64,000 nucleotides of DNA. It comes from Lonicera japonica (taxonomy: Eukaryota; Streptophyta; Magnoliopsida; Dipsacales; Caprifoliaceae). Each line of letters begins with the position of its first letter. Within the stretch, counting starts at the first letter, position 1. This document shows positions 3,000 to 49,289 of the stretch, piece by piece. The stretch is taken from NCBI GenBank assembly GCA_021464415.1, contig CM038470.1:35396099-35460098 (forward strand), in the 5' to 3' direction. The notes beneath the pieces were generated by a model. The model saw nothing but the letters and a program-made list of their open reading frames with translations, did no database searches and was not told the DNA's origin. The translations under genes and the position numbers were made by a program.

Positions 3000-3080
3000 G
3001 TATTTATAGCAAAAAAAAGGGTCCTGTGCCTGTTTGTCGCGCGACAAACCCATGCCCAGGAGGGATTGTCGCGCGACAAT
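3000..3080 (-). promoter_or_regulatory. Promoter of A antisense gene 1: TATA box plus two TGTCGCGCGACA palindromes
   Basis: On the minus strand TATAAATA occupies 3008-3001, 41-48 bases before ATG 2960. Upstream lie two perfect 12-bp palindromes at 3035-3046 and 3067-3078, exactly 32 bp apart (about three helical turns). Element B keeps both palindromes with the same 32-bp spacing at 34248 and 34280. The same palindrome is repeated upstream of the LTR TATA boxes. The role as an operator is inferred. Confidence 0.65.
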
Positions 3081-10909: not shown

Positions 10910-10945
10910 GGACTTATATAGTGAAGAGGATTGTCGCGCGACAAT
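10910..10945 (-). promoter_or_regulatory. Promoter of A antisense gene 2: TATATAA and one TGTCGCGCGACA palindrome
   Basis: On the minus strand TATATAA lies at 10920-10914. A perfect palindrome TGTCGCGCGACA (10932-10943), extended to ATTGTCGCGCGACAAT, sits 11 bp upstream of it. ATG 10775 follows by about 140 bases. The B copy has the same layout with three palindromic sites (38819-38883). Confidence 0.6.
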
Positions 10946-12346: not shown

Positions 12347-12360
12347 GAGTCGAGAGGGTC
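12347..12360 (+). promoter_or_regulatory. Polypurine tract of element A
   Basis: GAGTCGAGAGGGTC directly abuts the TGTAGACACC start of the 3' LTR. The polypurine tract is the primer for plus-strand DNA synthesis in LTR retrotransposons. Element C has CGAGAGGGTC at the same place before its 3' LTR (48067-48076), although its LTR family differs. Confidence 0.6.
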
Positions 12361-13921
12361 TGTAGACACCCCGATCCGTGACCCCCGCAAGAACCCTAAC
12401 GACCTTCGAGAACTACTGTTTTTGGTCCGGGACCCACCCGAGCACTCGAAACTACACCGAAAGGGTTTGTTGGCCAACAAACCTATTTTTAAGAGAGATT
12501 GTCGCACGACAAATGGGTATGTCGCGTGACAATCCCCCTTATGTCGTGCGACAATCACTCCTATGTCACGCGACAATCACTTCTGACACCAGACCATCCA
12601 CTCTCTGACACATCAGTCTATCAGAAACATCACTTCAGCCGTTTGTCGCGCGACATTGGACACATTGTCGCGCGACATATGCCCCATTTGGAGAAGTGTC
12701 GCGCGACAATCTTCCCCGAGCAGTATAAATAAGCCAACACCCCCCAAGGGTTCAAGGGCAGCAATTTGGGGATTGAACAATTATTGGCTTTTATCTGATT
12801 TTCTAGTCTTTCATCAAGCATTCTCGATTCTCGTCTTATTTCTGAAGAATTATCGAATCTATTCTCGACACTCGACGTGTCCCGTCTCTGGAAACGAATT
12901 CTCAGAAATATCTGAAGAAGGAAAAGATCATTATCGCCAGAGATCTCTCTGCCATATTATATTTTCTTTCTTATTATTATTCTCGTCGGGAAGGTAAAGA
13001 AAGTCTCTTCTAGTATTTGACATTAAACATCTGTGTACTTGTTTTATTTCTGTTGTTTTGTCCACGTTTTATTTGAATAAACTTATTGCCAAGTTACAAA
13101 TAGTCTACTGTTTTCAAAACAAAAGACCCTGATAAAATCATTTGCAAAACCAGAAGAGTAATTATATTATCATCCGGATAAAATTCTGTTTTCAAAACCC
13201 GGACCGATAAAACTTACTCAGGAATTAAAAAGTCAGTATACCCTATCTGTTTCATAGATTGTGATGCATCTGGTAAAACTCCCCTCAAGAGTTCTAATTC
13301 TATATTGAATTAGTTTCGATATAAGATCCAAACTTTTTCCAAAACAAGTTAAAACCTGAGAAAAACCGTCATTATCTGAGAAATAATACGGGAAACTCCC
13401 TCTCTAAAGAAAAAACCCACTTTTGTCATTTGTTCTTGCATATCTCAAAACTAAACATTGGATCCTGGAACACAAAGGTTTTTATCCCTTTCCCCGTTGT
13501 CCCAAAAATTAGGGTTTTCACTTAGAAAGTAATAGACTGTCAGTAAAAGCATCCAAGTGTTTCAACATAGAATAAACATATAAAAGACCACTAGAGACCG
13601 AAAGGGCGGAATGGGTGCTTAACACCTTCCCAAACCATAATATAGTTTTCGAACTCTATAGAATCATGGTTTCGTAGACAAACGTGTAAAGAAAGGCTTA
13701 TCTATAGCCTTTCCTCTTACACGACCCTTTTTGTCCGTTTTCTCGTAAAACGTACTGGCGACTCTGAATGAACTCCTTTGCATCTAGAAATAGAACATAG
13801 GGACATGTGATATGAATTATCAAAATACTCCAGCAAATGGAACGACGGAATCCGTTTCGACGTTTCAGACGCCCAACCGAACAGGGACGAGACCCGGGGG
13901 TCGCATTTGCGGATTCTCACA
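12361..13921 (+). mobile_element. Element A 3' LTR (family 1)
   Basis: The LTR begins TGTAGACACCCCG and ends GCGGATTCTCACA, 1561 bp. It matches the B 5' LTR (22605-24168) and the solo LTR at 29421. U3 holds an array of 12-bp palindromes. A TATAAATA at 12724 should start R, and AATAAA at 13076 is a candidate polyadenylation signal. The U5 part has GAGACCGAAAGGGCGGAATG (13594), shared with family 2 LTRs. The 5' LTR is outside the window, so the target duplication cannot be tested. Confidence 0.85.
12500..12731 (+). promoter_or_regulatory. LTR promoter of A: seven 12-bp palindromes then TATAAATA
   Basis: Sites start at 12500, 12520, 12542, 12564, 12644, 12666 and 12697. The last three are perfect TGTCGCGCGACA. 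The first four each carry one transition at a CpG (TGTCGCACGACA, TGTCGCGTGACA, TGTCGTGCGACA, TGTCACGCGACA). Spacing within each cluster is mostly 20-22 bp, two helical turns. TATAAATA follows at 12724-12731, 16 bp after the last site. Confidence 0.75.
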
Positions 13922-22604: not shown

Positions 22605-24168
22605 TGTAGACACCCCGATTCGTGACCCCCGCAAGAACCCTAACGACCTTTGAGAATTACTGTTTTTGGAGTACGGGACCCACTCGAGCACCCGAAACTA
22701 CCCCGAAAGGGTTTGTTGGCCAACAAACCTGTTTTTAAGTGGGATTGTCGCACGACATATCAGTATGTCGCGCGACAATCACTGATATGTCGAGCGACAA
22801 TCACTTCTATGTCGCACGACAAACCCCTCTGACCCCGACCATCCACTCTCTGACAAATCAGTCTGTCAGAGACATCACTTCAGCCGCTTGTCGCGCGACA
22901 TTGGAAACATTGTCGCGCGACATATGCCCCTTTTGGGGAAGTGTCGCGCGACATATTACTCCCACCACTATAAATAGGCCAACACCCCCAAGGGTTTAAG
23001 GACAGCAACTTGGGATCGAAGAATTATTGGCTTATATCTGATTTTCTAGTCTTTCGTCAAGTATTCTCGATTATCATCTTATTTCTGAAGAATTATCGAA
23101 TCTATTCTCGACACTCGACGTTTCCCGTCTCTGGAATCGAATTCTCGAAAATATCTGGAAAAGGAAAAGATCATTATCACCGGAGATCTCTCTGTCGTAT
23201 TATATTTTGTTTCTTATTATTATTATTCTCGTCGGGAAGGTAAAGAAAGTCTCTTCTAGTATTTAACATTAAATATATGTGTACTTGTGTTTATTTCTGT
23301 TGTTTTGTCCACGTTTTATTTGAGTAAACTTATTGCCAAGTTATAAATAGTCTACCATTTTCAAAACAAAAGACCCTGATAAAATTATTTGCAAAACCAG
23401 AAGAGTAAGTACATTATCATCCGGATAAAATCCTGTTTTCAAAACCCGGACCGGTAAAACTTACTTAGGAATTTAAAACCCGGTATATCCTATCTCTTTC
23501 ATAGATTGTGATATGTCTGGTAAAACTCCTCTCGAGAGTTCTAATTCCACATTAAATTAGTCCCGATATAAAGATCCGAAAATTTTCTAAAAGAAGTCAA
23601 AACCCGAGAAAAATCGTCGTTATCTAAGAAATAACACGGTAAAACTCCCTCTAAAGTAAGAACAACTCTTGACACTTGTATTTGCATCTCTCAAAACTAA
23701 ACATTGGATCTCGGAACACAAAGGTTTTTCGTGCCCTTTCCCGTTTTTCCCAAAAATTAGGGTTTTCACTTAGAAAGTAGTAGACTGTCAGTAAAAGCAT
23801 CCAAGTTTTTCAACATAGAATAAACATATAAAAGACCACTAGAGACCGAAAGGGCGGAATGGGTGCTTAACACCTCCTAAACCGTAATATAGTTTTCGAA
23901 CCCTATAAAATCCTGGTTTAGTAGACAAACGTGTAAAAAAAGGCTTATCAGTAGCCTTTTCTCTTACACAACTATTTTTGTCCGTTTTCTCGTAAAACGT
24001 ACTGGCCACTCTGAACGAACCCCCTTGTATCTAGAAATAGGATAGAAAGACACCCGATATGAACTATCAACACCCATAGAAGCAAATGAAACGATGAAAT
24101 CCGTTCCGACGTTCCAGACGCCCAACGACGGGAACGAGACCCGGGGGTCGCATTTGCGGATTCTCACA
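22605..24168 (+). mobile_element. Element B 5' LTR (family 1)
   Basis: It begins TGTAGACACCCCG and ends GCGGATTCTCACA, 1564 bp, and is followed by a primer site, so it is a 5' LTR. It is inserted in the E reverse transcriptase (preceding bases GGGAC). The partner 3' LTR would lie in or beyond the assembly gap at 50139. Confidence 0.9.
22746..22976 (+). promoter_or_regulatory. LTR promoter of B: seven palindromes then TATAAATA
   Basis: Sites begin at 22746, 22766, 22788, 22810, 22889, 22911 and 22942. The sites at 22766, 22889, 22911 and 22942 are perfect TGTCGCGCGACA. The others differ by one base (TGTCGCACGACA twice, TGTCGAGCGACA once). TATAAATA is at 22969-22976, 16 bp after the last site. 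The layout equals that of the A LTR. Confidence 0.75.
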
Positions 24169-29420: not shown

Positions 29421-30781
29421 TGTAGACACCCCGATCCGTGACCCCCGCAAGAACCCTAAACGACCTACGAGACTACTGTTTTTGGAGCCCGGGACCCACC
29501 CGAGCATCCGAAACTACCCCGGGGGGGTTTGTTGCGCGACAAACCTTTTTTATGAAGGATTGTCGCACGACATATCACCTTGTCGCGCGACAATCATTGG
29601 AATGTCGCGCGACAATCCCACTATGTCGCGCGACAATCTCTCTCTGCACCCGACCAACCACTTTCTGACACATCACAGTGTCAGGACCCATCACTTCAGC
29701 CGCTTGTCGCGCGACAATCCCACTATGTCGCGCGACAATCCCTCTCTGCACCCGACCAACCACTTTCTGACACATCACAGTGTCAGGACCCATCACTTCA
29801 GCCGATTGTCGCGCGACAAACAGATATGTCGCGCGACACTTGCCCTTTCTGGGGAAATGTCGCGCGACAATCTCTCCCGAGCACTATAAATAGGCCAACA
29901 CCCCCAAGGGTTCAGGACGGCAACTTCTCGCCACAATTTCTATACTAAAATTCCTTATTCTCTCTCATATTTTCTAATCTTTAAGCCTTCTCTGAAAGCA
30001 TCTGCGATAACATTTATTTCCGCAAGAGTCTCGGATCTAATCTTGGCACCCGAAGTGCCACCTTCTAGAGTCAGACCGCTGGAAATATTTCTAAGAGGAA
30101 AAGCTAATATTCGCCGGAGGTCTTCTCTGCCGTATTATATTTTCTCTCTCTTATTCTTATATATATCGTCGGGAAGGTAACTAAAGTCTCTTCTAGTAAT
30201 TAAATAAGATATTTGTATATTAGTTTTATTGTAGACTTGTTTAGAACTCGATTTTTCTAACGGGGCGCTGCCCCGCACCCCGCGACCCGACCGGGCCGGT
30301 CGATCCCCGTCCTAGTAAGCGAAGTGGCGACATAGTTGTGGTAGATTCCTACTGCGCTCGAAAAACAGGTTTTCATTAGTTATTTCCAGAAAGTAGTAGA
30401 ATATCAGTAAAAGCATCCAAGTTTTTCAACATAGAATAAACATATAAGACCACTAGAGACCGAAAGGGCGGAATGGGTGCTTAACACCTTCCCAAACCGT
30501 AATATAGTTCCCGAACCCTATAGAATCCTGGTTTCGTAGACAAACGTGTAAAGAAAGGCTTATCTGTAGCCTTCCCTCTTACACAATCATTTTGTCCGTT
30601 TTCTCGTAAAACGTACTGGCGACTCTGAACGAACCCTCTTGCATCTAGAAATAGGATAGAGGGACTCCCGATATGAATTATCAACACATTGAAGCAAATG
30701 GAACAACGGAATCCTTTCCGATGTTTCAGACGCCCACCAACGGGAACGAGAACCCGGGGGTCGCATTTGCGGATTCTCACA
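29421..30781 (+). mobile_element. Family 1 solo LTR inside the B integrase, perfect CAAGA target duplication
   Basis: It starts TGTAGACACCCCG and ends GCGGATTCTCACA, 1361 bp. CAAGA flanks it at 29416-29420 and 30782-30786, and integrase homology resumes at once. U3 carries ten palindromic sites. A GC-rich segment at 30245-30345 is missing from the other family 1 LTRs. The intact target duplication and mostly perfect palindromes suggest it is younger than the A LTR. Confidence 0.92.
29530..29892 (+). promoter_or_regulatory. LTR promoter with ten palindromes and a 102-bp tandem duplication, then TATAAATA
   Basis: Sites begin at 29530, 29561, 29581, 29603, 29624, 29705, 29726, 29807, 29827 and 29858. 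Eight are perfect TGTCGCGCGACA. A 102-bp unit covering two sites and the hairpin CTGACACATCACAGTGTCAG is duplicated (29624 to 29726). TATAAATA lies at 29885-29892. A and B LTRs have seven sites and one copy of this unit. Confidence 0.8.
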
Positions 30782-31300: not shown

Positions 31301-31361
31301 TATTACCAATAGATGTAACTGTATTACCAATGAACACCCCAATGTACGACTCTCGTGCTGT

Positions 31362-32710
31362 TGTGAACACCCCAATTCACTGATTTTCTTTAAGCATCCT
31401 GCATTTAATCATGAATCTGATTTTCTTTACATGTAGAAAGACTGCATTTAATCATGAATCATCATACTCCAAGACGCGTTGGGATCTAGGAAAGACTCCA
31501 ACCCTTGTTGTCTCTTCGCTTACTAGGACGGGCAGCGCCCCGTTAGAAATTTGGTTTTTTCCGAGCGCTCCTGCGCATTTTTTATGAGCCAGCCGCACCC
31601 CCCTGTCGCACGCCCAACCGTACGGCTACCTGCCAACCGTACGGTTGGCACCTCCTAGCCGCACCCCCTTGTCGCACGCCCAACCGTACGGCTACCTGCC
31701 AACCATACGGTTGGCACCTTCTAACCGCACCCCCTAGCCGCACGCCCAACCGTACGGCTACCTGCCAGCCGTACGGCTGGCACACCCCTGTCGCACGCCC
31801 CAGCCGCACCCCATGCGGCTACCCCTGCGGTTGGCCTCTTTTGGAGCGTTTTTGGCGCAAATGTTGCTATAAATAGGACCCTTGGGATCCCATTTTGGGA
31901 TCATGAACATTGAATAGTATTTTGGGTAAGTAGGAGCTTTGTCAAAGTCTCTAGAAAGTCATTTTTAGAGAAATTCTGAGAGAAGGCTAGTGAGAGAGAA
32001 GGCTAGTGAGAGAAAGCTCTAGAGAGAGAAAGCTTTAGAGAGAGAAGGAAGTCAAGGCAAAGTCCTCCTATCTTCAAGCGCATCAGGTATATTTTCTAAG
32101 ACCCTCCTTAATTTCAATACTGCATTTAATTTCAATTTTAATATAGAAAATTAGATAACTTGCAAAGAAGTTCACTGCTTTCAAATAAATCATTTCTAAG
32201 TTTTACAAGAAAACTAAAATCCGTTTTGACACGTTTTCAAAACAAACAAAAATACAAAAACGGTTTCCAAAAGAAAGGAACTACGAGACTCTGATTTCAT
32301 TCTACGAATGAATACGTAGGCGCTTGCAAAGCTCGAGTCTGATTTCAAAATATTATTTTAAACTGAATTTATCCGGAAAGGACTATTTTGAAAACCATTC
32401 GAACTACTTGCAAGATATCTAAAATAGGAATTAGATACATGATCCATTAAGAGACCGAAAGGGCGAATTGGGTGCCTAACACCTTCCCAATTCGTAACGT
32501 AGTTCCCGAACCCTAGCAAAGTCAATTTTCAAAATGAATCTCTGGTTTCAAACGTATGAGAGATAGTTCGTTTTCGAATTATCCTTCGTACGATCTTTTG
32601 TTTGTTTTCTCGTAAAACAAACTGGCGACTCTACAAAACACGTTTTCAAATAAAACCGAGAACGGAGGACTCTTTTCTCTCCTCTCGGGGTATGGGTCCG
32701 GATTCTCACA
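31362..32710 (+). mobile_element. Family 2 solo LTR between B integrase and antisense gene 1
   Basis: It starts TGTGAACACCCC and ends GGGTCCGGATTCTCACA. The flanks are GCTGT (31357-31361) and CCTGT (32711-32715), four of five matching. A second partial copy of the LTR start (TGAACACCCCAATGTACGAC) lies at 31331, so the left edge is rearranged. U3 has three roughly 65-bp units with paired CCGTACGG palindromes (31616-31776), then TATAAATA at 31868-31875. It shares its R/U5 layout with the LTRs of element C. Confidence 0.8.
31616..31875 (+). promoter_or_regulatory. Family 2 LTR promoter: six CCGTACGG palindromes then TATAAATA
   Basis: Sites begin at 31616 (AACCGTACGGCT), 31635 (AACCGTACGGTT, perfect), 31682, 31701 (AACCATACGGTT), 31746 and 31765 (AGCCGTACGGCT, perfect). 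Pairs are 19 bp apart and recur every 64-66 bp. TATAAATA is at 31868-31875. Confidence 0.75.
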
Positions 32711-32919
32711 CCTGTATAGATAAGAACTACGTAAACCTGAGCCCCAACTCGAAATGGTGTTTTTGAAAAATCAAAAAGGGGAACGTAGGCAACCTGAGAA
32801 GTGACTTCAGGCCCGGTTTAAACTTTGTAAAGAAATTTTCCATAAAACAGTTCCTCGTATATTATTAAGGTGGTTCAGAACACCGAAAGTTACAAAGGAG
32901 ATACAACATACAGAAAAAC

Positions 32920-34174
32920 CTAATCCCTAATGGTTGGCCAAGCAGGGTCCTCAGTAGCCAAATCAGTTCGAGCCTTATCCAGGATCTGGTACGCAAAGAC
33001 AATGTTCTCCTCTGTGGGCTCAAAATCCATGAACCGGAACCACTCCATTTGGAAGGGATCATCAATTAGCTCCCCCTCCAAAGACCCCCAACGAGAACAG
33101 ATGATGTTAGCCTGAAGGGGCTTGGTAATACTAAAACGGGCATAGTTGAATTGACAAGTCAGTCGAGCACGCCACATCCTCTCTACCGATAAAGAAACAT
33201 GTAAGGTCACAAATTTAGACTCAGAGGAGAAGTTGTTCATACCAAGGGGAATGTCCTGAGGAACGTTGAACTGACGAAGGAGACGTCCTAGGAAATAAAA
33301 GGAGGTAAACCAGAGCCCGCGAAGCCGAACATAGTTCTGACCCCTTGTACTAAGCACCATCGCCCTCAGCTTCTACCAAGGAATGTTCCACCGGATAGCC
33401 CGAAAGTTCTTCGAAAATCACACCGTCCAATTAGAGGAAGACATGGTCAAAGCACCAAAAAAGGACGACGGAAAAAGTGCGTAGGGTTGTCAAGCCGAAC
33501 CCCGTTGAAACCCACCGACCGGAAACGCTCTAACAGCCACATGTATAGCAAACGGGGGCTTTCCTTGAAAAAGGATAAGGCTCCCCTTTGAAGATCATCT
33601 AGGCCGTTCAGAGTCTCTACAAGAACAATTGGCACTATAGACTCCCCGTTCCTAGCATGGTAAATCAAACTCAAAATAGTCAGATCGACATGGGAAGAGC
33701 CTGTCACCAGTAACATATCAGAAACAAGACAGATCAAGGCCACCGCAGTACGCCCCACACTATACGAAGCTCTCTCTTCGTAGCGATGAAAGAACCTCAC
33801 CATTTTATGGAGGTCAAGAAGCCCGTCGACAATAAAACCATCACAGGCCGCTTGGGGAATAGCTAACAGAGCAATCAGCATATCTCGAGGACCGATTTCT
33901 TCTATGGGAACAGCCATCGAAAGACGAACATCAGAACGCAACAGCCAGGAGAACTCTTCATAAGTCGGACATAGCTCATCTAGCCCGAAACGGAAAAGAT
34001 GATCCACAGGGCTCCAGAAATACAAAGCACCTAGCAGGAAGGAAAAATCTATAGGACGATGGCACCAGCCTGCTAAAGGGCTAAAAACACCAAAGTTCAA
34101 ACCATTCTCAGAAGATATTAGAGCATCTCGGGTTTTAACATAAAAAAATCAGAATTTGTGCGATAAGAAGACAT
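32920..34174 (-). pseudogene. Element B antisense gene 1: DUF7745-like protein, broken
   Basis: This is the counterpart of the A gene at 1704-2960, with the same blocks: DHLFRFGLDELCPTYEEF, TILSLIYHARNGESIVP, SPRLLYMWLLERF, and a C-terminus ending PTIRD at 32920. ATG 34174 matches A. Lesions differ from those of A: a base loss near 34146, a deletion near 33450, and a Trp-to-stop change near 33415. The two stops of A are absent. A working ancestor can therefore be inferred, which implies the gene was once under selection. Function unknown. Confidence 0.7.
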
Positions 34175-34207
34175 TTTGGAAAAGGAGTGGGGATGAAGGA
34201 AGGAACA

Positions 34208-34291
34208 TGGGTGTATTTATAGCAAAAAGGAGGGCCCTGTACCTATTTGTCGCGCGACAAACCCATATCCAGGAGGGATTGTCGCGCGACA
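34208..34291 (-). promoter_or_regulatory. Promoter of B antisense gene 1: TATA box and two palindromes
   Basis: TATAAATA reads on the minus strand within 34214-34222. Perfect TGTCGCGCGACA sites lie at 34248-34259 and 34280-34291, 32 bp apart as in A. Confidence 0.65.
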
Positions 34292-34656
34292 ATCCTATTT
34301 TCTATACCTTGTTTTTTTTCCTGTCTTACACGTAAGAGTCATTCTTGCTAAAAGAACCACTTTTGTATGCACTGTACTTACTTTGTTCTTTTGCAGGAGG
34401 CCTAAAAAACTTCCGTATCACACGGTATGATTCCTAGCCCCCCTAATTTTGTGTATAGATGTATATAAGTTATAAATAAACTATTGTCACAAATGCAAGC
34501 AGAAAATAAAAAAATCATCATCACTACAAATAAGAGTTTTATAAATCCAACAAAAACAGTTTCCAAAAAACTAGAAAAATACTAAAACAAATGTTTGTCT
34601 ACCCTTTATAAAACTACATATCTATTTCAAACTAACAAAAGTGCAGGAAAGAAAAG
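34292..34656. other. Element B: spacer between antisense genes
   Basis: AT-rich and homologous to 3081-3422 of A, including a TTTTGCAG tract near 34390-34397. No gene is seen. Confidence 0.5.
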
Positions 34657-37600
34657 CTAATATACTCGAGCGCGCTTTGACACGCTCCCACTATCACCTG
34701 AGCCCTCCTCAAGAGTAAGGTCAACCACTGGGACGCCCTGAGTAGGAGGGACTACCGCCTGGGAAAGCCCCATCGACTGGACAGGAGCCGTAGGACGAAT
34801 CATCGAGGACCGAGAGCACCTAGAAGTCCGACTACAACTCCTCCGAGACTCCGTCCGGGCATGAGAAGAAGTCATAGGGTTGCTCGGTCGTAAGGAAACG
34901 TCAATCGCCCTCTGATAGTCATGCATGTATGCTGGAGGGTCTCGACCGACGTACTGGAGAAGGTTCCAGTTATAGAGGTGCTGGGCATGCCAAGCCCTCA
35001 GATCCGCCACCCGTACACTCACCCGCTGTGAAAAACATAAGATAAAAGAATCAGCACAGTCAAAATAAATAAATATGAATATAAAAGTATCGAGAAAAGT
35101 TGAAGTAGGTACCTCATCGCCAGAGCGACCACCCAAGCAGTTAAAAGCATCCTCAGGAAGAGGATACTCAGGAACAGTGTATCGACGTAAACCGGTGCCA
35201 ACATAAGAGATATCTCTGGGAAGTGGAGGAAGATCTACCGAAGGAATGGACGAGCCCGCCAGAACATCAGCAGAACTGGACCCACCCTCCTCGCGAATTG
35301 GAAACAGGGAAGGCCGAGAAGATGAGCCACCGAGACCCAGAGATCGGGCCGGAGGGCCCATAGCAGTCGACGGAAGAGGGGTCAGTGTGGCATAAATACA
35401 AACACCTGGAGGATCCACCATAGCCGTCGCTCTCAAAGGTGGGACCCCGCTAGAAGGAGTGGTCGCAGCAGCAGGAGGGGTCCGCCCAACCTGTTCATAG
35501 TCGACCCCAAAGTTCGCAGTCTCCCAGGACCGCTCCAAAAAATCTGCTGCACCTCCCTCAGCAGCCTCAAAAATAGCCCCTAGAGATGCTGATGGACCGG
35601 TGGGAAACTCAAAACCCTCAGCAAGCTGCTCCTCTCTAGGTGTAGTCTGAGAAGGCTGCTCTGGAACAGCCGCTGTCCCACCTCCCTCACCGCCCTCGAT
35701 TCTATCATCACCTCCCTCGGGCCTATCATCGCCTCCCTCAGCACCAGCAGGAACGTCCCTCTCTCCCTAGGGTCATCATCGTCGGAGTCCAAAATGTTGT
35801 CCCTCTGATTGGGGACAGGCGGCAGCTGACCGGGAACTATCAAGGACAAATGAGTCTGTCCTCGTATGTAGTTGGGATCACCTCCCAACGCCCGGTACCT
35901 CTTATAGAAAACCCATCCCCGAGTCCCCTTCGGCTCCCTCCTCGGTGAACGTCTTAAAACCGAGCCAGTCAACCAACGCCTGCACCGTCACCGAATCGAT
36001 CTCGCCTGTCTGCCTCATCAGAACTGGTGGGAATTAAGGAACTCTAGGCCACTGGGCCGGTGTATGCTGGTGAATAACTCTCTCACCCAAGTAGAAGTGG
36101 AGGCCGTACTCATCCCTGATAAGCCACCTGGTCCTTGAGGCAGTCAGAGCACGGCAATATCCAAAATAGAGACCCAAATCACCCCAGGGGGCCCACCCAA
36201 TCTGAACAATTTTTTTTTTATTTCAGTTATTTATATTCTATTTTTACTAGTTAATTATTAAAAAGAAAGAATACTAAGATATTTACCTGCTCCTCCAACA
36301 GGTCATGGACGGCAGCAGCTCTGGTCTCCCGAGTCCTGTATACATAGGGAGCCCTGTAGTTCCCCGCAATGAATCGACGGAGAAAAGGAAACTGATCCTC
36401 GTTCTCGACGAGGAGATCCACCTAGGCACGACCCAGACGGGTATACGCCACGAACCAACTCTGAAGAGGAGACATAAAGAATATCAGCAACAACATATAA
36501 TAAATATAAGGGATTGAAGCAAAGATAAGGGAACAAAAGTGTATACCTCCCACAGCAAAGAAAAGCCTTTGAGGTTCAGGGCTAGATGGCGAGAAACCTG
36601 GTCCATAGCATCGTACAAGACAGCCAGAATAAAGCCCCCCCAGTCATAGTCAAACATAATGCTGAAGTCTCCGAGTTAAGGCAACCACCAGAGATGGGCT
36701 GTGTCCCCCCCTTTGGCCTCGAACAGATCATGGAGCGGCAGCAAAAAAAGAACACGAGCATACTGACGCGCCTCCTGATGGGTCATCGGCGCTCCAGAAG
36801 CAACTAACCGGGCTCTCTCTGTGGCTAGCCGCGTAACCAAAATCGCCCGAGGGATCGTGTTTCCCGAACTCCGTCGCTCAGGAAACCACCCGAGTGCACC
36901 CATAATGCCCTCTGCCGTCAGACGCAAAGGGAAATCAATATGGATAGGGACCCCCTGAAGGAATCTCGGTCAGAGCAAATAGGTCCAGGGGGGGTCATCG
37001 TCATCTCTCCCCAGCTCCAATGGAAGGTATGAGTGGTGTCCCACCACTGGCAGGCCAGAGCCGACACCAACACAGCTGCCCTAGATACCCACTCCGGGAG
37101 GGCATCGAAGAGGGAACCAAAAGGAGTCGCAAGAAGCAACTCCTGGACAAGGGCCAGTGCCTATCGCCACTCTAAGAAAATAGTATTGGGAGAACCCCTA
37201 CCTCGGTCGACCCACTACAGACAAAGAGAAATATAAGAATATGAGAAACCTGAGGGTACTTTTGTGTAAATATGAGAGTTATAGGGTTATAAGGGTAAAT
37301 TATGTAATTTTCCAAACTTGTGGGTACTTTTGTGTAAATATGAGAGATATAGGGTTATAAGGGTAAATTATGTAATTTTCCAAAACCTGAGGTTACTTTG
37401 GTGTAATTATGAGAGTTATAGGGTTATAAGGGTAAATTATGTAATTTTCCAAACCTGAGGGTACTTTTGTGTAAATATGAGAGTTATAGGGTTATAAAGG
37501 TAAACTATGTAATTTTCCAAACCTGAGGGTACTTTGGTGTAATTATGAGAGATATAGGGTTATAAGGGTAAATTATGTAATTTTCCAAACCTGAGGGTAC

Positions 37601-38663
37601 TTTTGTGTAAATATGAGAGATATAGGGTTATAAGGGTAAATTATGTAATTTTCCAAACCTGAGGGTACTTTGGTGTAATTATGAGAGATATAGGGTTATA
37701 AGGGTAAATTATGTAATTTTCCAAACCTGAGGGTACTTTTGTGTAAATATGAGAGTTATAGGGTTATAGGGGTAAATTATGTAAATTTCCAAACCTGAGG
37801 GTACTTTGGTGTAATTATGAGAGTTATAGGGTTATAGGGGTAAATTATGTAAATTTCCAAACCTGAGTGTACTTTTGTGTAAATATGAGAAATATAGGGT
37901 TATAAGAGTAAATTATGTAATTTTCCAAACCTAAGGGTACTTTGGTGTAATTATGAGAGATATAGGGTTATAAGGGTAAATTATGTAAGTTTCCAAACCT
38001 GAGGCTACTTTTGTGTAAATATGAGAGTTATAGGGTTAGAGGGGTATATTATGTAATTTTCCAAACCTGAGGGTACTTTGGTGTAATTATGAGAGGTATA
38101 GGGTTATAGGGGTAAATTATGTAAATTTCCAAACTTGAGGGTACTTTGGTGTAATTACGAGAGTTATGGGGTTATAAGGGTAAATTATGTAATTTTCCAA
38201 ACCTGAGGGTACTTTGGTGTAATTATGTGATTTATGGAGTTATAAGGGTACATTATGTAGTTTTCTAAAAAACCTAAAAGGGTATCACAGGTAAAAGTAT
38301 GTGTTCACTAAATCGGACGTTATTTCTAGGCAGACATGCATACTAACATTGTTTAAAATACATGCAGGAAACGACATAAATAAATCGAACAAATAAATAC
38401 ACGAAAAGAAGACATACCAAAGACCGTTGGCGGATCTCATGAGAAACAGGCTCCATCAAGAGCCACAGAACATCCGGGACTAGAGCAGCCTGAGTGACGT
38501 CTCGGTAGACCACCGCCCGACCGCGGTCCACCCCATCCTCGCCATACCAATCAAGGTCCTCCCAGTCATCATGGTGAGGGTTGCATCGGAGAACGCCCTG
38601 AGCGTCTGTAAAAGTGACCTCCTCCTGGTCACCCTTCAATCTATCAGGCTGAGCAGGGTCCAT
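34657..38663 (-). pseudogene. Element B antisense gene 2: five-exon PMD protein, mostly preserved splice sites
   Basis: Inferred exons: 1, 38663-38418; 2, 37214-36547; 3, 36460-36287; 4, 36201-35113; 5, 35025-34657. Donors (GTATGTC, GTATACA, GTAAAT, GTACCT) and acceptors (CTGTAG, CTTCAG, GTTCAG, TCACAG) are all canonical here. Exon 1 has HHDDWEDLDWYGEDGVDRG. Exon 2 has MTHQEARQYARVLFLLPLHD and GGDTAHLWWLP. Exon 5 is Arg/Ser-rich and ends KRARVY, a possible nuclear signal. Breaks: frame change near 36950, stop near 36677, and lesions in exon 4 near 35770 and 35940. Homologous to PMD (PF10536) proteins; a role in silencing or its suppression is inference. Confidence 0.78.
37235..38285 (-). repeat. 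68-bp minisatellite filling intron 1 of the B PMD gene, with 136-bp dimers
   Basis: About 15 units of 68 bp alternate ACTTTGGTGTAATTATGAGA and ACTTTTGTGTAAATATGAGA, giving a higher-order 136-bp unit over most of the array. A uses almost only the first type. The arrays share an origin but were amplified separately. Confidence 0.9.
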
Positions 38664-38799
38664 CTGTGTATATAGAAAGTAGTGAGAAAGTCAGAAAATC
38701 AGAAAAGCGGCAGGGCTTCCGCGCTTGAGAGACGAGAGAAAAAGAGCTAGAGAGAGAAAGAGAAAGGAGAGAATGAGGTGGAATAAGCTCAGCAAGGGA

Positions 38800-38885
38800 C
38801 TTATATAATGAACCAGTTTGTCGCGCGACAAATGGGCTCCTTGTTGTTCGACAAAAAGCCCTGCACCGAAATGTCGCGCGACATA
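38800..38885 (-). promoter_or_regulatory. Promoter of B antisense gene 2: TATATAA and three palindromic sites
   Basis: TATATAA (minus strand, about 38807-38801) is followed upstream by TGTCGCGCGACA at 38819-38830, a decayed TGTTGTTCGACA at 38842-38853, and a perfect site at 38872-38883. Confidence 0.65.
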
Positions 38886-39129
38886 TTGGTCCCCTCCCCT
38901 AATTTTTTGATCTTTGTCTCATTTTATCTCCTGTAGGGGTGCTTCAGAGAGACAGTTTTCGAAAAACTTGCTAAATACGGCACACCCAGGATGAAAATTC
39001 GAGGAAAGGACTTCCAAATCATCTCTCCGAAAATGCGAGAACAAATACAAACGGTTAAAGTAGTCTCTGATCTCCCAGAAAGGACCGAGACCATCAATGA
39101 GAAAAAGCAAATATCAGGATAAGACGGGA

Positions 39130-39290
39130 ATAGAAAAAATTGAAAGAGTAGAAAAGAGAAAGAACCCGCATGAGCGCCCAAAGCGAGCGAGAGAAACAGA
39201 AACGCAGAGTGACAGGGAGAGCCACACCAAAAGTGACAGCTAGGCCAAAATTGGCTCAGGGCTTCGTTTTGGGTGAGTAAGGCTCCTGAT
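39130..39290. other. Conserved non-coding block upstream of the antisense PMD gene (copy B)
   Basis: Nearly identical to 11170-11345. One A fewer in the run before TTGAAAGAGTAGAAAAG changes the frame downstream, which argues against coding. It ends near the element C insertion site. Confidence 0.6.
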
Positions 39291-39364
39291 CACAACAAAG
39301 GAACAAAAAAGACTCCTGGTCAAAAACAGAGAAGGCCAGGAAAAGTCTTTCCCAAAAGAGGGAG

Positions 39365-40616
39365 TGTGAACACCCCAATCCACGACTCTCGTGCGAACAC
39401 TGGTTTTCTTAAAACAAAGCATCTTGCATTAAGTGTTGAGTCATCATGCATATAGAATACCGTTAGGAAAAACTCCATTTTCGGCCACGTTGGGAGTTTG
39501 ATATAACCTTTGATGCTTCTTCGCTTACTAGGACGGGGATCGACCTGTTAGAAAAACGAGTTATTTCCGAGTGTTCCCGTGCTTTATTTTGTGAGCCAGC
39601 CGCACGCTCCCAGCCGTACGGCTACCTGCCAGCCGTACGGTTGGCACCCTAGCCGCACGCCCCAACCGCACGCCCCAACCGCACGCCCTAGCCGCATGCC
39701 CTGCGGCTACCCCCAACCGCACGCTCCTAGCCGCACGCCCTGCGGCTACCCCCTGCGGTTGGCCTGTTTTGGAGCGTTTTTGGCGGGATTTTTGCTATAA
39801 ATAGGACCCTTGGGCTCTCATTTAAGGACATCAACACTCAATAGTGTTTTTAGCAAGTAGAAACTCTGTCAAAATTATTAGAGAGTCATTTTAGAGGAAT
39901 TCTAAGAGAGAGTTCTAGAGAGAGAAAATTTAGAGAGAGAACTTCTAGAGAGAGAAAATCTAGAGAGAGAAAGGAGGAATCAAGGCAAGGTTCTTATTTC
40001 TTCTTCAAGCGCATCAAGTACGTCTTTCTACGACCCTACTTAATTTCAGTATTGCATTTAATTTCACTTTTAATACAGAAAATTAGATAACTTGCAAAGA
40101 AGTTCATTGCTTTCAAATAAAGTCCTTTCAAAGTTTTACAAGAAATCTAAAATCCGTTTTGACACATTTTCAAAACAAACAAAAATACAAAAACAGTTTC
40201 AAAAAGAATAGAACTATGAGACTCTGATTTTATTCTACGAATGAATACGTAGGCGCTCGCAAAGCTCGAGTCCGATTTCAAAATACCGTTTTAAATCAAA
40301 TTTATCTGGAAAGGACTATTCTGAAAACTATTCAAACTACTTGCAAGATATCTAAAATAGGAATTAGATACATGATCCATTAAGAGACCAAAAGGGCGAA
40401 TTGGGTGCCTAACACCTTCCCAATTCGTAACGTAGTTCCCGAACCCTAGCAAAGTATATTTTAAAACTCTGGTTTCATACGTATGAAAGATAATTCGTTT
40501 TCGAATTGTCCTTCGTATGATCTTTTGTTTGTTTTCTTGAAAAACAAACTGGCGACTCTATAAAGTACGTTTTCATATAAAACAGAGAAGGAGGACCCTT
40601 TTCTTTTCTTTCTTCG
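39365..40616 (+). mobile_element. Element C 5' LTR (family 2), 3' end deleted
   Basis: It starts TGTGAACACCCC. U3 has palindromes AGCCGTACGGCT (39612-39623) and AGCCGTACGGTT (39631-39642), a run of diverged GCCGCACGCCC units, and TATAAATA at 39796-39803. R/U5 matches the 3' LTR up to TTTCTTTCTTCG at 40616. The last about 40 bases and the primer site are missing, replaced by AT-rich sequence with a duplicated TCTTTTTCGTAATTAAAA (40622, 40669). Loss of the primer site makes this copy unable to replicate. Confidence 0.85.
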
Positions 40617-41524
40617 TAATTCTTTTTCGTAATTAAAATTTTATTTGCTAATTATGTGAGGGAAATCTTTTTCGTAATTAAAATTTTGTAAATTATCATA
40701 ACAAATCCTAAAGCATTGATCAATAATGAACCGCCAGATGATTATTTCGCACGCACCCACGTCTTATCATGCATTTTCGCGAGTGTGAATTTACCCTATT
40801 AACCTCGAGACCAAAGTCGTGACTAGGCCGTGGACTTGCGGGTCTACACTAGCCAAAAGCGCCTGGGACCACTCTCCTTGGCCAAGTACTTACTGAGGTA
40901 TATCGAGTGACAAGAACACTCACGTACCCGGGATGTATATCAAAAGGTCCTTGCACGTACCTGCGCTCTTAAGGTATATCGTAAGACCTGCCAAATAGAA
41001 GGGAGCCTCAAACCTTACCCTCTTAAACCACGCTTGCATATAGGGGAGTCAGCTTAGAACACAAGATTTTGTGCATTGTTTTTATGATCGACAGTCGTGA
41101 GAATCTAGTGAGCGAAAGCCCTGATTCCATGAACAAAGCAACTCATGAGGAGAGAACTACCCGTATTTTCGAATGATTTTTCAGAAAACTCTTTTCAAAA
41201 TGATTTTCCAAAACTGTAGATGGTCAGGGAACCCAGGGAATTCTATTCCTACCCTACCGCTACACGGGGCTCTTAAGTTGTCGCCGTTGGTCTGCTTTTG
41301 ATCTCACCTAAAGAAAACCTTTTGTGTTTATTTTTGTCCCGATCGATGTATTTCTGGATAAAGTCCAGCGAGTTCTAAATGATATATTGTTGTTATTTTC
41401 CGGGGAATGCACGCGATTGAATTTGTCCTTTTGTACGGCATCAGATATTCATTCCATCCTGGCCTCTGCGTGGGCAGGAAGAGACAGTACCGGACGACTC
41501 GTTAGACCGGATTCTTTTGAAAAT
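40617..41524 (+). other. Element C leader with conserved GTATATC units
   Basis: At 40885-41010 it shares CTCTCCTTGGCCAAGTACTT, GAGGTATATCGAGTGACA, the unit with ATGTATATCAAAAGG and AAGGTATATCGTAAG with B and D. A frame open from 41324 runs into gag, but the Met at 41525 is a better start. Confidence 0.6.
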
Positions 41525-43320
41525 ATGGATCAGAATACTCCTAACCGAAATGTGAACAACCAGTTCAACAATGCAGCGGATCCGCCGCCCGGTCCGTTTT
41601 ACCCAAACCCGGGAATGCCTCAGAACAATACCGTTGGAGGTCAACCACTGCATCATACTCCATCTCTCAATGCCGATCCAAACTTGGCTAGCACAAGCGG
41701 AAACATGAATGCTCCATTACCAAACCCTAAAGACATGTATCGGATGTTAATGAACCTGAACCAAAGCATGGCCATGTTACTAAGTGACAATCAGAACACT
41801 CGTGCCAAGTTGGACGAGTTGGCTAAAGGTCGCTTGGCAGAACCACCGAGGGAAACTCCGGTTATTCCTCCACCACCACCGCCACTCTCAGTTCATATGG
41901 AAGCACCACTGCCGTTCGAACAGTTGAACAAACCCAAACACATGCATGATCTAGTTGGCAATTGGTTACACCAAGATCCTATCAATCAAGCCCCTCCACA
42001 AATGCCATCGATGCACGAACCTTATCACGATCCATATTATGAACCGATAAGGAGGCCCATGAGTGTCCAAGGGAGGGCCCCTCACCAATGGAAGGTTACC
42101 GGGGGGATAAAGACTTATCTGAACTTAAAGAACAACTGAAGGCACTTACCCAAAAGGTCGCCGAAAGTTCAAATGATTTGACCCAGTTGCAGAGTTATAA
42201 TTTGTACCCAGAGGCTCATTATCCAGTGGGTTTTAAGATGCCCTCAATACCAAAGTTTACGGGAACCACACCGTCGGAACTCCACCTAAAATCATACGTC
42301 CGTTCAATGAGAATTTATGATGTCGGGGAAGCTGAATTGGCTAATTCGTTTCATCTTACGCTAGCTGGACCAGCCCAAAGTTGGTTTTTGAACCTTGAGA
42401 AGCACCGGGTTAGGTCATGGTCAGCCATCGTCCAAGAGTTTGTGTCTCAGTACAAACTACTAATGAGGAGCTTAATTAGTTACAGGAAAGGAAACATTTG
42501 GAGAGGCTAGCAGAAAGAAAATGAAAGCATCATATTACGAATTTGTTACGAGATGGAGAGAATTGGCAGCCCAAATTGTGAGCGCCTAGATGAAGAGGAA
42601 CAATTGGGGGTTAATCGTAAAGAATTAAAACCCCGAGATTCGGACTCAAATGGGTCATCAGTTCTTAGGGATAGCAGATTCAAGGCTCTACTCCACGTGG
42701 GCAACGAAATTGAGGAGGACCTGGCCAAACAGGCTGAAATCAAGAAGTCTGCCTCTCAATACAAGAAGACTTCTACGTCCGCTGTCAATCAAGTAACATC
42801 TTATGGGTCCTATGGCAGAGGATACTCCAACAACCCCTATGGTCAGAACTCTGTGAAAAACATTGGGGATTATCCTACACCGGGGTATCGCAACAACAAC
42901 AACAACAACCCCAGGACATTTGATCAGAACCGCTCACGTGATCGACATTTTTCACAATTGCCAGGACCATTGGGGAAGGTTTTCAAACAACTGAAAGAAG
43001 CTGGGATTATGTATCCCATGAATCCGAAGCCATTACCACCACAAATACCGCCTCATTGGAACATGAATGAGCGGTGCGAATACGACCAAGGGTTTGGGCA
43101 CACTACCGATAGTTGTATGGCTCTACGGCATGCCATCCAAAACCTGATCGATAGCAAGAGAATCCCAGATCCGTCAGCCCCGAATGTTGCCAGGAATCCC
43201 TTTCCTAATCACCGAATCAACGCTATCAAGGAGGATTTAGATTTACCAGATCCTGTATTCTTAATCAAACCTGCTTTGAATACAGAAAATGTTGAAGTAT
43301 TGAAAGTTGGCTGTTTAAAG
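41525..43320 (+). pseudogene. Element C: gag (capsid and zinc-knuckle region), two frame changes
   Basis: ATG 41525 opens MDQNTPNRNVNN, a Pro/Asn-rich N-terminus. After a frame change near 42100 a Retrotrans_gag-type capsid follows, with MPSIPKFTGTTPSELHLKSY and FHLTLAGPAQSWFLNLEKH. A further break near 42510 leads to 42553-43428. That part has Tyr/Asn-rich repeats and a CEYDQGFGHTTDSC motif, a zinc knuckle in which one metal His seems changed to Asp, followed by ALRHAIQNLID. Gag builds the particle. Near 43320 the frame runs into DNA derived from the antisense PMD gene, marking the pol deletion. Confidence 0.85.
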
Positions 43321-45370
43321 CCTTCACCTGCTGTGGCTCCTCGTCCTCCACCTGCTGTGGCTCCTCGTCCCTCTCTCCATGCGGATCCTCGTCGTCTGAA
43401 TCCGCAATCCCTTTCGCCCTCCGGTTAGGCGCAGGAGCAGGCTGATGTGGGACCCTCTGCGAGATGTACAACTGCCCCGGATGAACATCGGATCTCCCCC
43501 GAGTGCAGCATACCTCACGTATATCGCCCTGCCTCGCACCCCCCTCATCTCTCTCATCAGATAGCGATGCACGAAGGTCCCATACTCTCCCTCCACCAGC
43601 AAGCCCTCCATCGGGACGCCTCCCAAGAATGCAGCCCGATCCTCTGCAGCTACCATGCTCGATCGCCTCATCGCCGCTGGAGGCCAGGCCGGGACCCTAA
43701 AGCCTAACCCGGGAGTGTGCTGCCGCACCACGCGCTCCCCCAGGTAAAAAGCTGCCCCGTACTCGTGCAGAAAAAGCCTCCTCAAACGAGCAGCCGCCAG
43801 TGCATCAGCGTACCCCCACTGCTGCGTCACGTATGCAGGCCATGGACTCCACTGAACCTGCCACATTGAACATACGCTATAAATAACACAACTTTCTTTT
43901 TTAAAAATACTTTAAGTTTTATTCTAATTCATACCTGATCTAGCTGAAGGCCTGAGACGTCGCCTGCACTGACGTCAGGGGTCAGATATCGATACACCCC
44001 AACTATGTTCCCTCTGTAATACCGTCTGAAAAGCGGGAACTCATCGGCGAAGGTAGGGTGCAGATGGATCTGACCGATACCCTGATGGGTATGTGCAATA
44101 AACCACATCTGTCGTAAATTATCACAATTTTTAAAACCATCAATTTTATTAAACAATCACATGATTTTCAAAAAGAAATATTGCAAAAAAAATAAAAAAA
44201 ATTACCTCCCAAAGCGTGACCAGTCCGCGGTGGTTCAGCTCCATGTGCCGGCACACCAAGTCCATCGACTCGTACAGCACCGCCAGCACATATCCTCCCA
44301 GGCGAATGTGTACAGCTGGTCGAAGAATCGCAGGTACGGCAGCCACCATAATCGCAGGTTGTCACCCCCCCGTGCGTAGAAGAAGTCATGTATCAGCAGC
44401 AGAAAACACCGTGATAACTGCCGGACCTCCTGCCGTGTCATCAGTCCATCTCCAAATCTCTCACTCTCCGCCTCGATGTGCTGTACCATCGTCGTGTGGG
44501 GTATCCCGTCCGCCACTATCCGGCACTGCCTCCAACCACAAGGTGCCGCCCATCCCATCTAGCGTGACTCGTAATCGGGGTTTGAGTACCAGTGGCTCCC
44601 CTCCAAATGGCAGCCCCGTCAGCACGAACACGTCCTCTGGGGTCAACGTCATCTTCGCCCCAACTCCAATGAAGGTGTGCGTTGTCCCACCATCTCTCTC
44701 CCAATACCGTCGGCAGACTCACCGATCGCGCTGGACCTCTCTCCGCCGGGCAGCACCTCGATGAATTGTCCGAACGGGGTCACGCTCAAGTAAGCCCTCA
44801 CCAATGGGGGTAACTGATCTCGAAGCTCGGGAGCGGCACGTGTGATACCGCGACAACATCCAATCCTCTGTCACATCACATGTTTAATAAAACTTAGAGC
44901 CTGCTATTAAATTAATACTGGATAATACATGTTTTGACAACAAAACGCTATGTTAAGTATGTTTATTATGGCAAGTAATTATTAAATTTATCACATTTTC
45001 ATGCATATCAATTCATTGCATTTTTTCAAAAATCACATAATATAAAATACTAGAAATTAGAGCATACCCGAGTACGGCGCGAATCTCGTGTGCCGCAGGC
45101 TCCATCAGTAGCCACACTCGTCCCCTCTCCTGGTGAGATCAGTGGCACGTCGCGATACATCACCCGCTGTAGTGATCCGTCTGCCCCCAGTGGCCCCTCC
45201 CAGGCCACACCCTCCCAGTCGTCGTGACGAGAGCGCAGAGTAGTCGCCGCCACCATCATCGCGGTAATAGAGTCCACCTCATCTCCTGGGAGTAGCTCCG
45301 GCGCCTCCCCTCCTTTCGGTGGGCCCCCCATCATCATGTACACACAGACAGATCGCAAAAAGTCTAGCAA
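43321..45370 (-). pseudogene. Element C antisense PMD gene, diverged family, last exon truncated
   Basis: Exons inferred: 1, 45370-45068; 2, 44867-44206; 3, 44108-43935; 4, from 43857 to a truncation near 43321. All three introns keep canonical ends (GTATGCTC, GTAATT, GTATGAAT donors; GACAG, GACAG, GGCAG acceptors) at positions equivalent to B, with no minisatellite. Shared marks: MTLTPEDVFVLTGLPFGGEP, QLSRCFLLLIHDFFYARGGD, NLRLWWLPYLRFFDQLYTFAW, FYLGERVVRQHTPG. Exon 2 has frame changes (near 44510 and 44300). Protein similarity to A/B is moderate, so the two families parted long ago. The Arg/Ser C-terminus is lost with the pol deletion. Confidence 0.75.
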
Positions 45371-45482
45371 AAGCCATCACCACACTCTTCAGAACACTTG
45401 CTAAATGTTTTTTGAAACGTCAGAAATTTATAGACTAGATAGAAGATTGCAAGAAGAAGTGCTGAGAATGAACCAACAAGCC

Positions 45483-45580
45483 ACTATTTATAGGCAATAG
45501 GAGCCAGCCGCAGGCTAGCCAACCGTACGGCTAGCCCCCAATCGTACGGCTGGGGGGTCAAACCCTGCGGCTACCCTCAT
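45483..45580 (-). promoter_or_regulatory. Promoter of C antisense PMD gene: TATA box and CCGTACGG palindromes
   Basis: TATAAATA (minus strand 45492-45485) lies about 115 bases before ATG 45370. Upstream are AACCGTACGGCT (45521-45532) and a decayed AATCGTACGGCT (about 45540-45551), with GCCGCAGGCTAGCC and CCTGCGGCTACC beside them. These are the palindrome types of the family 2 LTRs, not the TGTCGCGCGACA type seen at A and B antisense genes. Confidence 0.65.
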
Positions 45581-47700: not shown

Positions 47701-47814
47701 TGAAACCCAGAAACACTCTTTCACTTTTCCCTAAGAAATGGGAAACCTTTGCAGCACTTTTCCGTTACGATCATTTGGACTTAATGAATGCCAAAACTTC
47801 TCACATGAAGCCCT

Positions 47815-48076: not shown

Positions 48077-49289
48077 TGTGAACACCCCAATCCACGACTC
48101 TCATGCGAACACTGGTTTTCTTAAAATAAAGCATCTTGCATTAAGTGTTGAGTCATCATGCATATAGAAGACCGTTATGAAAAACTCCATTTTCGGCCGC
48201 GTTGGGAGTTTGATATAACCTTGCATTAAGTGTTCATGTGCTTTATTTTGTGAGCCAGCCGCACGCTCCCAGCCCTACGGCTACCTGCCAGCCGTACGGT
48301 TGGCACCCTAGCCGCACGCCCCAACCGCAGGCGCCAACCGCACGCCCCAGCCGCACGCCCCAACCACACGCCCCAGCCGCATGCCCTGCGGCTACCCCCT
48401 GTGGTTTGCTTGTTTTGGAGCGTTTTTGGCAGAATTTTGGCGAGATTTTTGCTATAAATAGGACCCTTGGGCTCTCATTTAAGGACATCAACACTCAATA
48501 GTGTTTTTAGCAAGTAGAAACTCTGTCAAAATTATTAGAGAGTTATTTTAGAGGAATTCTAAGAGAGAGTTCTAGAGAGAGAAAATCTAGAGAGAGAAAG
48601 TTCTAGAGAGAGAAAGGAGCAATCAAGGCAAGGTTCTTATTTCTTCTTCAAGCGCATCAGGTACGTCTTTCTACGACCCTACTTAATTTCAGTACTGCAT
48701 TTAATTTCACTTTTAATACAGAAAATTAGATAACTTGCAAAGAAGTTCATTGCTTTCAAATCAAGTCTTTCAAAGTTTTACAAGAATCTAAAATCCGTTT
48801 TGACACATTTTCAAAACAAACAAAAATACAAAAACAGTTTCCAAAAGAATAGAACTACGGGACTCTGATTTCATTCTAGGAATGAATACGTAGGCGCTCG
48901 CAAAGCTCGAGTTCGATTTCAAAATACCGTTTTAAATCAAATTTATCCGGAAAGGACTATTCTGAAAACTATTCAAACTACTTGCAAGATATCTAAAATA
49001 GGAATTAGATACATGATCCATTAAGAGACTGAAAGGGCGAATTGGGTTCCTAACACCTTCCCAATTCGTAACGTAGTTCCCGAACCCTAGCAAAGTATAT
49101 TTTAAAACTCTGGTTTCATACGTATGAAAGATAATTCGTTTTCAAATTGTCCTTCGTACGATCTTTTGTTTGTTTTCTTGAAAAACAAACTGGCGACTCT
49201 ATAAAGCACGTTTTCAAATAAAACAGAGAAGGAGGACCCTTTTCTTTTCTTTCTTCGCCTCTCGGGTCGCGCGGGTCCGGATTCTCACA
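48077..49289 (+). mobile_element. Element C 3' LTR (family 2), complete
   Basis: It begins TGTGAACACCCC after the purine tract CGAGAGGGTC and ends GGGTCCGGATTCTCACA. It differs from the 5' LTR by scattered substitutions and a loss of about 60 bases near 48225. Palindromes are AGCCCTACGGCT (one change) at 48271 and AGCCGTACGGTT at 48290. TATAAATA is at 48453-48460. The low but clear divergence between the two LTRs suggests a moderately recent insertion. Confidence 0.88.

Follow-up and report, generated by a model that had tools for sequence, protein, structure and literature searches.

Family-specific palindromes shared by LTR and antisense promoters in two Tat-like retrotransposon families of Lonicera japonica: possible operators for antisense plant mobile domain proteins

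VANC proteins have been described as binding arrays of family-specific motifs (PMC5735166). Neither the plant mobile domain (PMD) nor the antisense genes found in Tat-type retrotransposons have a settled function in the available sections of the relevant papers (PMC7264820, PMC11963269, PMC7156037). For Grande, an antisense gene with its own promoter and a nuclear protein has been described (PMC7264820), and the antisense open reading frames (ORFs) of Retand-type elements have been proposed as regulators, possibly by DNA binding (PMC11963269). PMD is reported to be the commonest additional domain, occurring in the Gypsy consensus sequences of ten plant species (PMC9289625). The host PMD proteins MAIN and MAIL1 are needed for the expression of genes sharing a promoter motif, DOWN, and their direct recognition of it is described as unproven (PMC7156037, PMC9899485). 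Here we investigate a stretch of 64,000 nucleotides from Lonicera japonica, the window (assembly GCA_021464415.1, contig CM038470.1, positions 35,396,099 to 35,460,098, forward strand), where two families of long terminal repeat (LTR) retrotransposons, f1 and f2, each carry a palindrome of their own both in the LTR promoter and at the promoters of antisense genes.

The window is plant DNA in which self-comparison shows nested LTR retrotransposons, and both families appear to be Ty3/gypsy elements of the Tat-like type. The family 1 motif, F1, is TGTCGCGCGACA, and it is found at three f1 promoters, those of the LTR, of the antisense PMD gene and of a second antisense gene, g2. The family 2 motif, F2, is A[AG]CCGTACGG[CT]T, found in pairs 19 bp apart in the f2 LTRs and in the antisense PMD promoter of the f2 element C. 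The initial annotation had claimed a matching palindrome at these f2 promoters, and this is borne out: CCGTACGG has nine exact matches in the window against 0.20 expected from shuffles, all in f2 LTRs or in the antisense promoter of C. With up to two mismatches, TGTCGCGCGACA has 33 matches against 0.61 expected. All 33 lie upstream of the TATA box of an f1 LTR, of a diverged f1-like LTR (D) or of an f1 antisense gene; none is in C, whose antisense promoter indeed lacks the family 1 motif, as had been said. In a blind shared-word test, the longest word common to each of five antisense promoters (120 bp) and each of seven LTR U3 regions (350 bp) was compared with 200 shuffles per pair. Promoter and LTR of the same family share 15–19 bp, a length matched by 0 of 200 shuffles in every case, whereas cross-family pairs share 7–9 bp, matched by 45 to 199 of 200. 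For the D LTR paired with f1 antisense promoters, the longest common word is 9–10 bp, a length reached in 13 to 68 of 200 shuffles. The earlier claim that the pairing with the antisense gene is kept therefore holds in each family, and it extends beyond that claim to g2 in f1 and, likewise, in f2.

Three f1 and three f2 LTRs in the window, all on the forward strand, stand behind the LTR side of this pairing. The f1 sequences are the 3' LTR of element A (12359..13921; seven F1 or F1-like sites at 12500-12708, TATA at 12724), the 5' LTR of element B (22605..24168; seven such sites at 22746-22953, TATA at 22969) and an apparently solo copy within B (29421..30781; ten at 29530-29869, TATA at 29885). 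The f2 sequences are an apparently solo copy, also within B (about 31275-32710; TATA at 31868), and the 5' LTR (39365..40616; F2 sites at 39612 and 39631, TATA at 39796) and 3' LTR (48077..49289; sites at 48271 and 48290, TATA at 48453) of C. In the U3 of the solo f2 copy the palindromes form an array at 31616..31778 (forward strand) of 66-bp units with pairs 19 bp apart. Positions 31616-31776 had been correctly assigned to a family 2 LTR, but to one that is separate from C and lies inside the f1 element B; the site given at 48271 is F2-like but reads AGCCCTACGGCT, one base off.

The antisense promoters are on the reverse strand. Those of g2 are at 3001..3078 in A (TATA at 3008, F1 sites at 3035 and 3067) and at 34214..34291 in B (TATA at 34221, F1 sites at 34248 and 34280). 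Those of the PMD gene are at 10913..10943 in A (F1 site at 10932), at 38801..38883 in B (TATATAAG box, F1 sites at 38819 and 38872 with a decayed site between them) and at 45485..45551 in C, where the TATA box is at 45492 and two F2-type sites, 45521-45532 and 45540-45551 (the second one base off), are 19 bp apart. Relative to TATA, f1 sites start at -27, -58, -78/-80 and further upstream in the LTRs, and at -38 and -70 in the g2 promoters; for the PMD promoters, where the reference points differ slightly, the starts are -22 in A and -24 and -77 in B. The f2 sites start at -101 to -252 in the LTRs of the window (-60 to -315 in f2 LTRs fetched from elsewhere in the genome) and at -40 and -59 in the antisense promoter of C; the earlier placing of the sites before TATAAATA is thus loose. 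The 19-bp spacing of pairs is common to LTR and antisense promoter in f2, and among successive F2 sites no more than 90 bp apart it is found in 55 of 86 intervals. F2 also extends to a 16-bp palindrome, CCARCCGTACGGYTGG, whose four outer bases are kept in 36, 31, 28 and 30 of 37 distinct 28-base contexts. Helical phasing fits several f1 spacings (20-22, 31-32 and 53), not those of 79-81 nor the 19 bp of f2, and none is claimed. A signal in the RNA leader was rejected, since the sites lie upstream of TATA and are present at antisense promoters too.

Are the two motifs kept apart beyond the window? In the host genome (886 Mb), TGTCGCGCGACA, a very abundant CpG-rich 12-mer genome-wide, has 29,561 copies and its reversed control one, which suggests a large load of f1-type elements. 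The F2 form AGCCGTACGGCT has 1,049 copies (reversed control, 4). The TATA contexts of the antisense PMD promoters served as anchors: TATATAAGTCCC for f1, with F1 within 5-35 bp, and TATAAATAGTGG for f2, with F2 within 20-45 bp or F1 within 10-40 bp. Genome-wide, the f1 anchor has 111 matches with F1 (71 + 40, some promoters being doubled by two sites in range) and 0 with F2; the f2 anchor has 171 with F2 (78 + 93, doubles being possible) and 0 with F1; anchored reversed controls gave 0. No crossed combination of promoter type and motif appeared among these anchors; of the mixing between LTR and antisense promoter that the initial annotation had named as contrary evidence, they cover the antisense PMD side and not the LTR belonging to each promoter. 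Being short, exact sequences, they miss decayed promoters, and the zeros hold for exact sites only; adjacent exons were checked for the matches within the window or the fetched stretches. Among the listed anchor matches, which include the A and B promoters for F1 and the fetched stretches L014, L016, L020, L022, L031 and L032 for F2, placement relative to TATA is kept.

Twenty 10-kb stretches of contig C1 (L013-L032) were fetched around listed F2 sites, mostly the first listed, plus L033-L039. Since L013-L032 were picked by their F2 sites, their gene starts and LTRs test mixing and not presence. The 15 gene-start rows represent 14 genes. All seven readable f2 PMD promoters (L014, L016, L020, L022, L031, L032 and L033) carry F2 and no F1, a count that leaves out L026 (the same gene as L033, with its promoter outside the stretch), L027, and L030, where the sites seem to be those of an f2 LTR that has inserted next to the exon. 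The g2 promoters carry F2 in L022, F2 with one mismatch in L026 and L030, and F1 with one mismatch in L024, which is of f1 type. At 3753 in L021 and 5652 in L027 promoter sites have been replaced by other DNA, and L027 has no site within 350 bp. Partial matches included, 32 f2 LTR matches have F2 only and none has F1; two f1 LTR matches have F1 only, one has neither and none has F2. Among 22 TATA-anchored LTRs, 21 of 21 f2 copies carry F2 only and the single f1 copy F1 only. L035-L039 (50 kb) gave no element match and no site at up to one mismatch. Family exclusivity at LTR and antisense promoters is well supported in the places checked.

The f1 sites are also conserved. Site columns vary at 7 of 96 positions in f1 LTRs, compared with 78 of 260 elsewhere upstream (p 1.6e-6), and at 0 of 24 in f1 g2 promoters, compared with 76 of 251 (p 2.8e-4; with CpG columns only, 0/12 vs 6/8, p 7e-4). 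Site columns were those within one mismatch of the motif in some sequence, a choice that favours conserved columns.

The antisense PMD gene of C (43300..45337, reverse strand, ATG about 45337) has several exons and is a frameshifted copy, with a Pfam PMD match at 44461-44718 (E 5.7e-4) under the curated cut-off. The f1 PMD gene, with its own F1 promoter to the right of g2, starts at an ATG about 10775 in A and about 38663 in B, and translated blocks of the B and C genes match from exon 1 on, among chance matches. The f1 g2 gene is driven from the promoters at 3008 and 34221; its ATG is about 2960 in A, and in B it extends to about 32920. Four of five f1 PMD relatives are from Lonicera macranthoides, as is one of the two g2 relatives, P0007, whose 90% identity indicates that g2 is conserved in Lonicera. 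The predicted protein of P0007 starts inside its promoter, and its first residues would fit a pair of F1 sites at the 32-bp spacing seen in the window. P0007 carries PF10536 (PMD) in its precomputed annotation; in our scan it matches PMD at E 1.6e-5 (24.7 bits, under the cut-off) and DUF7745 weakly (12.3 bits). The more distant P0008 matches PMD at 22.1 bits and DUF7745 (PF24924) at 27.8 bits, where the gathering cut-off is 26 bits, and the g2 pieces of the window gave no DUF7745 match at E 1. The PMD matches as a whole range from E 5e-6 to 6e-4. In their N-terminal parts the g2 genes of the two families share only about 40% identity, yet each has the motif of its own family.

What might these sites do? 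Most likely, judging by the sequence, they are operators bound by the element's own antisense PMD-family protein and working in a VANC-like manner. The operator would be repeated in the LTR promoter and antisense gene promoters of each family; a dimer of one of the antisense-encoded PMD-family proteins would bind it and would switch on, or un-silence, the gene that encodes it and the copies of its family. Protein and site would then have to change together, and when the lineage split the site would have changed between F1 and F2 at both the LTR and the antisense promoters, in an otherwise unaltered layout. We lean slightly towards this explanation as a whole, a family-specific palindromic operator in LTR and antisense promoters through which a PMD protein may control its own family. 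The binder is probably element-encoded, because the motifs are family-exclusive within one nucleus and because C, in which no pol ORF of at least 150 amino acids was seen, carries an antisense PMD gene (the three ORFs of C that were scanned have no Pfam match). As to the direction of the effect, our guess is activation or anti-silencing rather than repression, since the sites lie upstream of TATA.

The co-evolution of a DNA-binding protein and its site, proposed in the initial annotation, fits the family-exclusive matched motifs and is plausible, not proven, as one switch is seen and binding is deduced. That the motif had changed completely was an overstatement, since TGTCGCGCGACA and AGCCGTACGGCT are alignable and agree at 6 of 12 positions; four of the six differences are transitions, and two palindromes would agree at three or more of six half-site positions with an estimated chance of about 0.17, which is not rare. 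In the 66-bp repeat of the f2 LTR copy, two units have TGTCGCACGCCC at the corresponding position and a third has AGCCGCACGCCC, a possible trace of the motif change. The one database relative found for the PMD protein of C, P0006, is an open frame in a contig of 1,582 bases that comes from another source. It holds a PMD exon 1 whose identity is 52-61% with f2 copies other than the decayed L030 (39%) and 39-40% with f1. Its frame crosses the promoter, where residues 213-216 (CRAT) permit F1 without mismatch 36 bp before a TATA-like stretch; the best F2 fit has three mismatches. Shuffled peptides permit F1 in 0 of 2000 cases (14-base form) and 2 of 2000 (12-base form), for a segment picked after the compatible residues had been noticed. 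In an exon-1 tree P0006 falls between the f1 and f2 copies (support 0.68). From its exon 1 and promoter, F1 is probably older and F2 a later replacement. The simplest reading would be an ancestral F1 with one later switch, and not a separate motif for each deep PMD clade.

Several results weigh against binding by a PMD protein and against co-evolution. That a PMD protein binds the sites is something we infer from sequence. The gathering cut-off of PMD (PF10536), 34.9 bits, was not reached by the broken exon pieces (26.3 and 19.6 bits), no DNA-binding domain was found, and structure prediction of P0007 with P0008 was unusable (mean predicted local distance difference test score, pLDDT, 32.9). 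A PDB sequence search gave a best E of 1.1. Only two motif types and one switch were seen, and P0006 combines an f2-like PMD exon 1 with an F1-compatible promoter. Promoter sites are lost in two gene copies (g2 of f1 type in L021, f2 PMD in L027), and 7 of 39 f2 LTR matches have no site. Site conservation is not significant in f2 LTRs (3/24 vs 48/213, p 0.19; CpG columns only, 1/8 vs 16/48, p 0.23), nor in f1 LTRs when CpG columns alone are taken (7/44 vs 8/26, p 0.12).

Could the palindromes instead be sites of host transcription factors, captured by each of the families? F2 would then be a double SPL/SBP site and F1 the site of another host factor, with LTR and antisense genes sharing the site since both need the same expression programme. 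SBP-domain proteins are reported to bind CCGTAC(A/G) (PMC6508781), which F2 contains on both strands, but the 16-bp palindrome and the frequent 19-bp spacing exceed the short SBP core, and for two families living side by side to be exclusive, capture would have had to happen separately in both, each time at several promoters. For F1 we know of no such host factor. We regard this main rival as unlikely, if the strongest of the competing accounts.

A less probable alternative is that the binder is the g2 protein and not the classic PMD protein. In L022 the f2 g2 gene (ATG at 9197) is preceded by five F2 sites at 19-bp intervals, which lie upstream of TATAAAAG and form the longest regular array seen at an antisense promoter, and the conservation of g2 in Lonicera points the same way; C, however, has the motif and a PMD gene, and no g2 ORF was noticed there, though no similarity search for g2 was made in it. 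Copying without function, in which recombination brought parts of the LTR to the antisense promoters and tandem duplication then multiplied them, would suit the tandem units of the LTR sites and the likeness by eye of the f2 LTR and C antisense site pairs over about 37 bp, but is very improbable, as shared words in f1 end within a few bases of the palindrome, f1 site columns are conserved relative to their surroundings and the listed anchor matches all keep their distance range from TATA; plain duplication as the whole story was rejected.

The remaining features of the window complete this picture of the elements. A probable 5' LTR of A lies outside the window in L034, 94.8% identical to its 3' LTR. 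The body of B runs from its 5' LTR up to a 100-N gap at 50139, with the two apparently solo LTR copies and C (about 39365-49289, forward strand, by self-comparison) nested inside it. The D LTR (19307-20508, reverse strand) is 67-69% identical to f1, with decayed sites, and ACTCGTATG-like words repeated at 20680-20860 beside it are possibly a third motif type. The most distal site of the A and B LTRs (12468 and 22714) is another perfect palindrome, TGTTGGCCAACA, which differs from TGTCGCGCGACA symmetrically in both arms; the f1 solo-like LTR reads TGTTGCGCGACA at the same place. Pol domains lie upstream of the antisense genes in B, and Pfam finds reverse transcriptase, RNase H and integrase domains in f1-type ORFs. 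A mark of Tat-type elements (Tat/Ogre/Retand) is a dual RNase H in pol; here RVT_3, with Integrase_H2C2, was seen in 28372-29265 and RT_RNaseH in another element (21574-22380). The ORFs upstream of the antisense gene in C (41312..43428, forward strand) are putatively gag, judging by a zinc-knuckle-like stretch; the two scanned have no Pfam match. About 3.5 kb of other DNA at 5531-9029 splits the antisense PMD gene of A and is lacking in B. Tandem repeats of 68 bp (9372-10420 and 37252-38367) occupy an intron position in the f1 antisense gene, separating its exon 1 from the PMD core exons, and a 113/228-bp tandem array with TTCCCCACGAAGGGAA units (46418-47602) lies between the antisense promoter and 3' LTR of C. 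Elsewhere, a scan of bacterial genome contigs gave eight loci with paired F1 sites in bacterial records, and pattern and protein scans of viral contigs gave no relatives. Among open-licence papers, TGTCGCGCGACA turned up in one only, on chicken PRMT4, and none was found that links a motif in an LTR to an antisense promoter.

How does this arrangement compare with those already described? The antisense ORFs of Retand, Grande and RIRE2 likewise have tandem repeats nearby and a proposed regulatory role, and no motif shared by LTR and antisense promoter was found in the available sections of that literature (PMC11963269, PMC7264820). Retand-type antisense ORFs are described as carrying TRP28 (PF04195), whereas the proteins here are PMD- or DUF7745-like; the antisense pieces and five of eight database relatives that were scanned have no PF04195 match. 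Plant Gypsy elements with PMD have the same domain, and no shared promoter motif was found in the available text on them (PMC9289625). MAIN and MAIL1 act on host genes, and the DOWN motif at the MORC1 promoter, given as CATGCAGTTT, is unlike F1 or F2 (PMC7156037, PMC9899485). The matched, family-exclusive operator at sense and antisense promoters opens a direct test of antisense protein function. If the proposed reading is true, it would give a function to the antisense ORFs of Tat-type retrotransposons and to the plant mobile domain; and if an element protein binds, this would suggest the ancestral activity from which host MAIN and MAIL1 were domesticated. The VANC protein, which binds its motif and removes methylation, presumably has the domain DUF1985 and is carried by a Mutator-like DNA transposon; no DUF1985 match was found by Pfam in the scanned ORFs, antisense pieces and relatives, and the elements here have LTRs as well as reverse transcriptase, RNase H and integrase domains in f1-type ORFs. 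Since protein family and element class differ, they are not members of VANC/VANDAL despite the similar working scheme. VANDAL elements are DNA transposons with another protein, whereas these are LTR retrotransposons, with near-palindromic sites upstream of TATA common to sense and antisense promoters. The likeness is in the scheme: in the available accounts of VANC/VANDAL anti-silencing in Arabidopsis, short family-specific motifs are arrayed in the non-coding regions of the element, as is also found here, related families have different motifs and related proteins, and arrays change by tandem repetition (PMC5735166, PMC10398659). Whether antisense PMD-family proteins are sequence-specific DNA-binding regulators that read a barcode of their family in the promoters of their own LTRs and antisense genes, changed together with it once and are VANC-like by independent origin is, in our judgement, evenly balanced. 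If an element protein does bind, transposon families would be known to mark their own DNA in two independent instances, and here too the mark would differ between related families.

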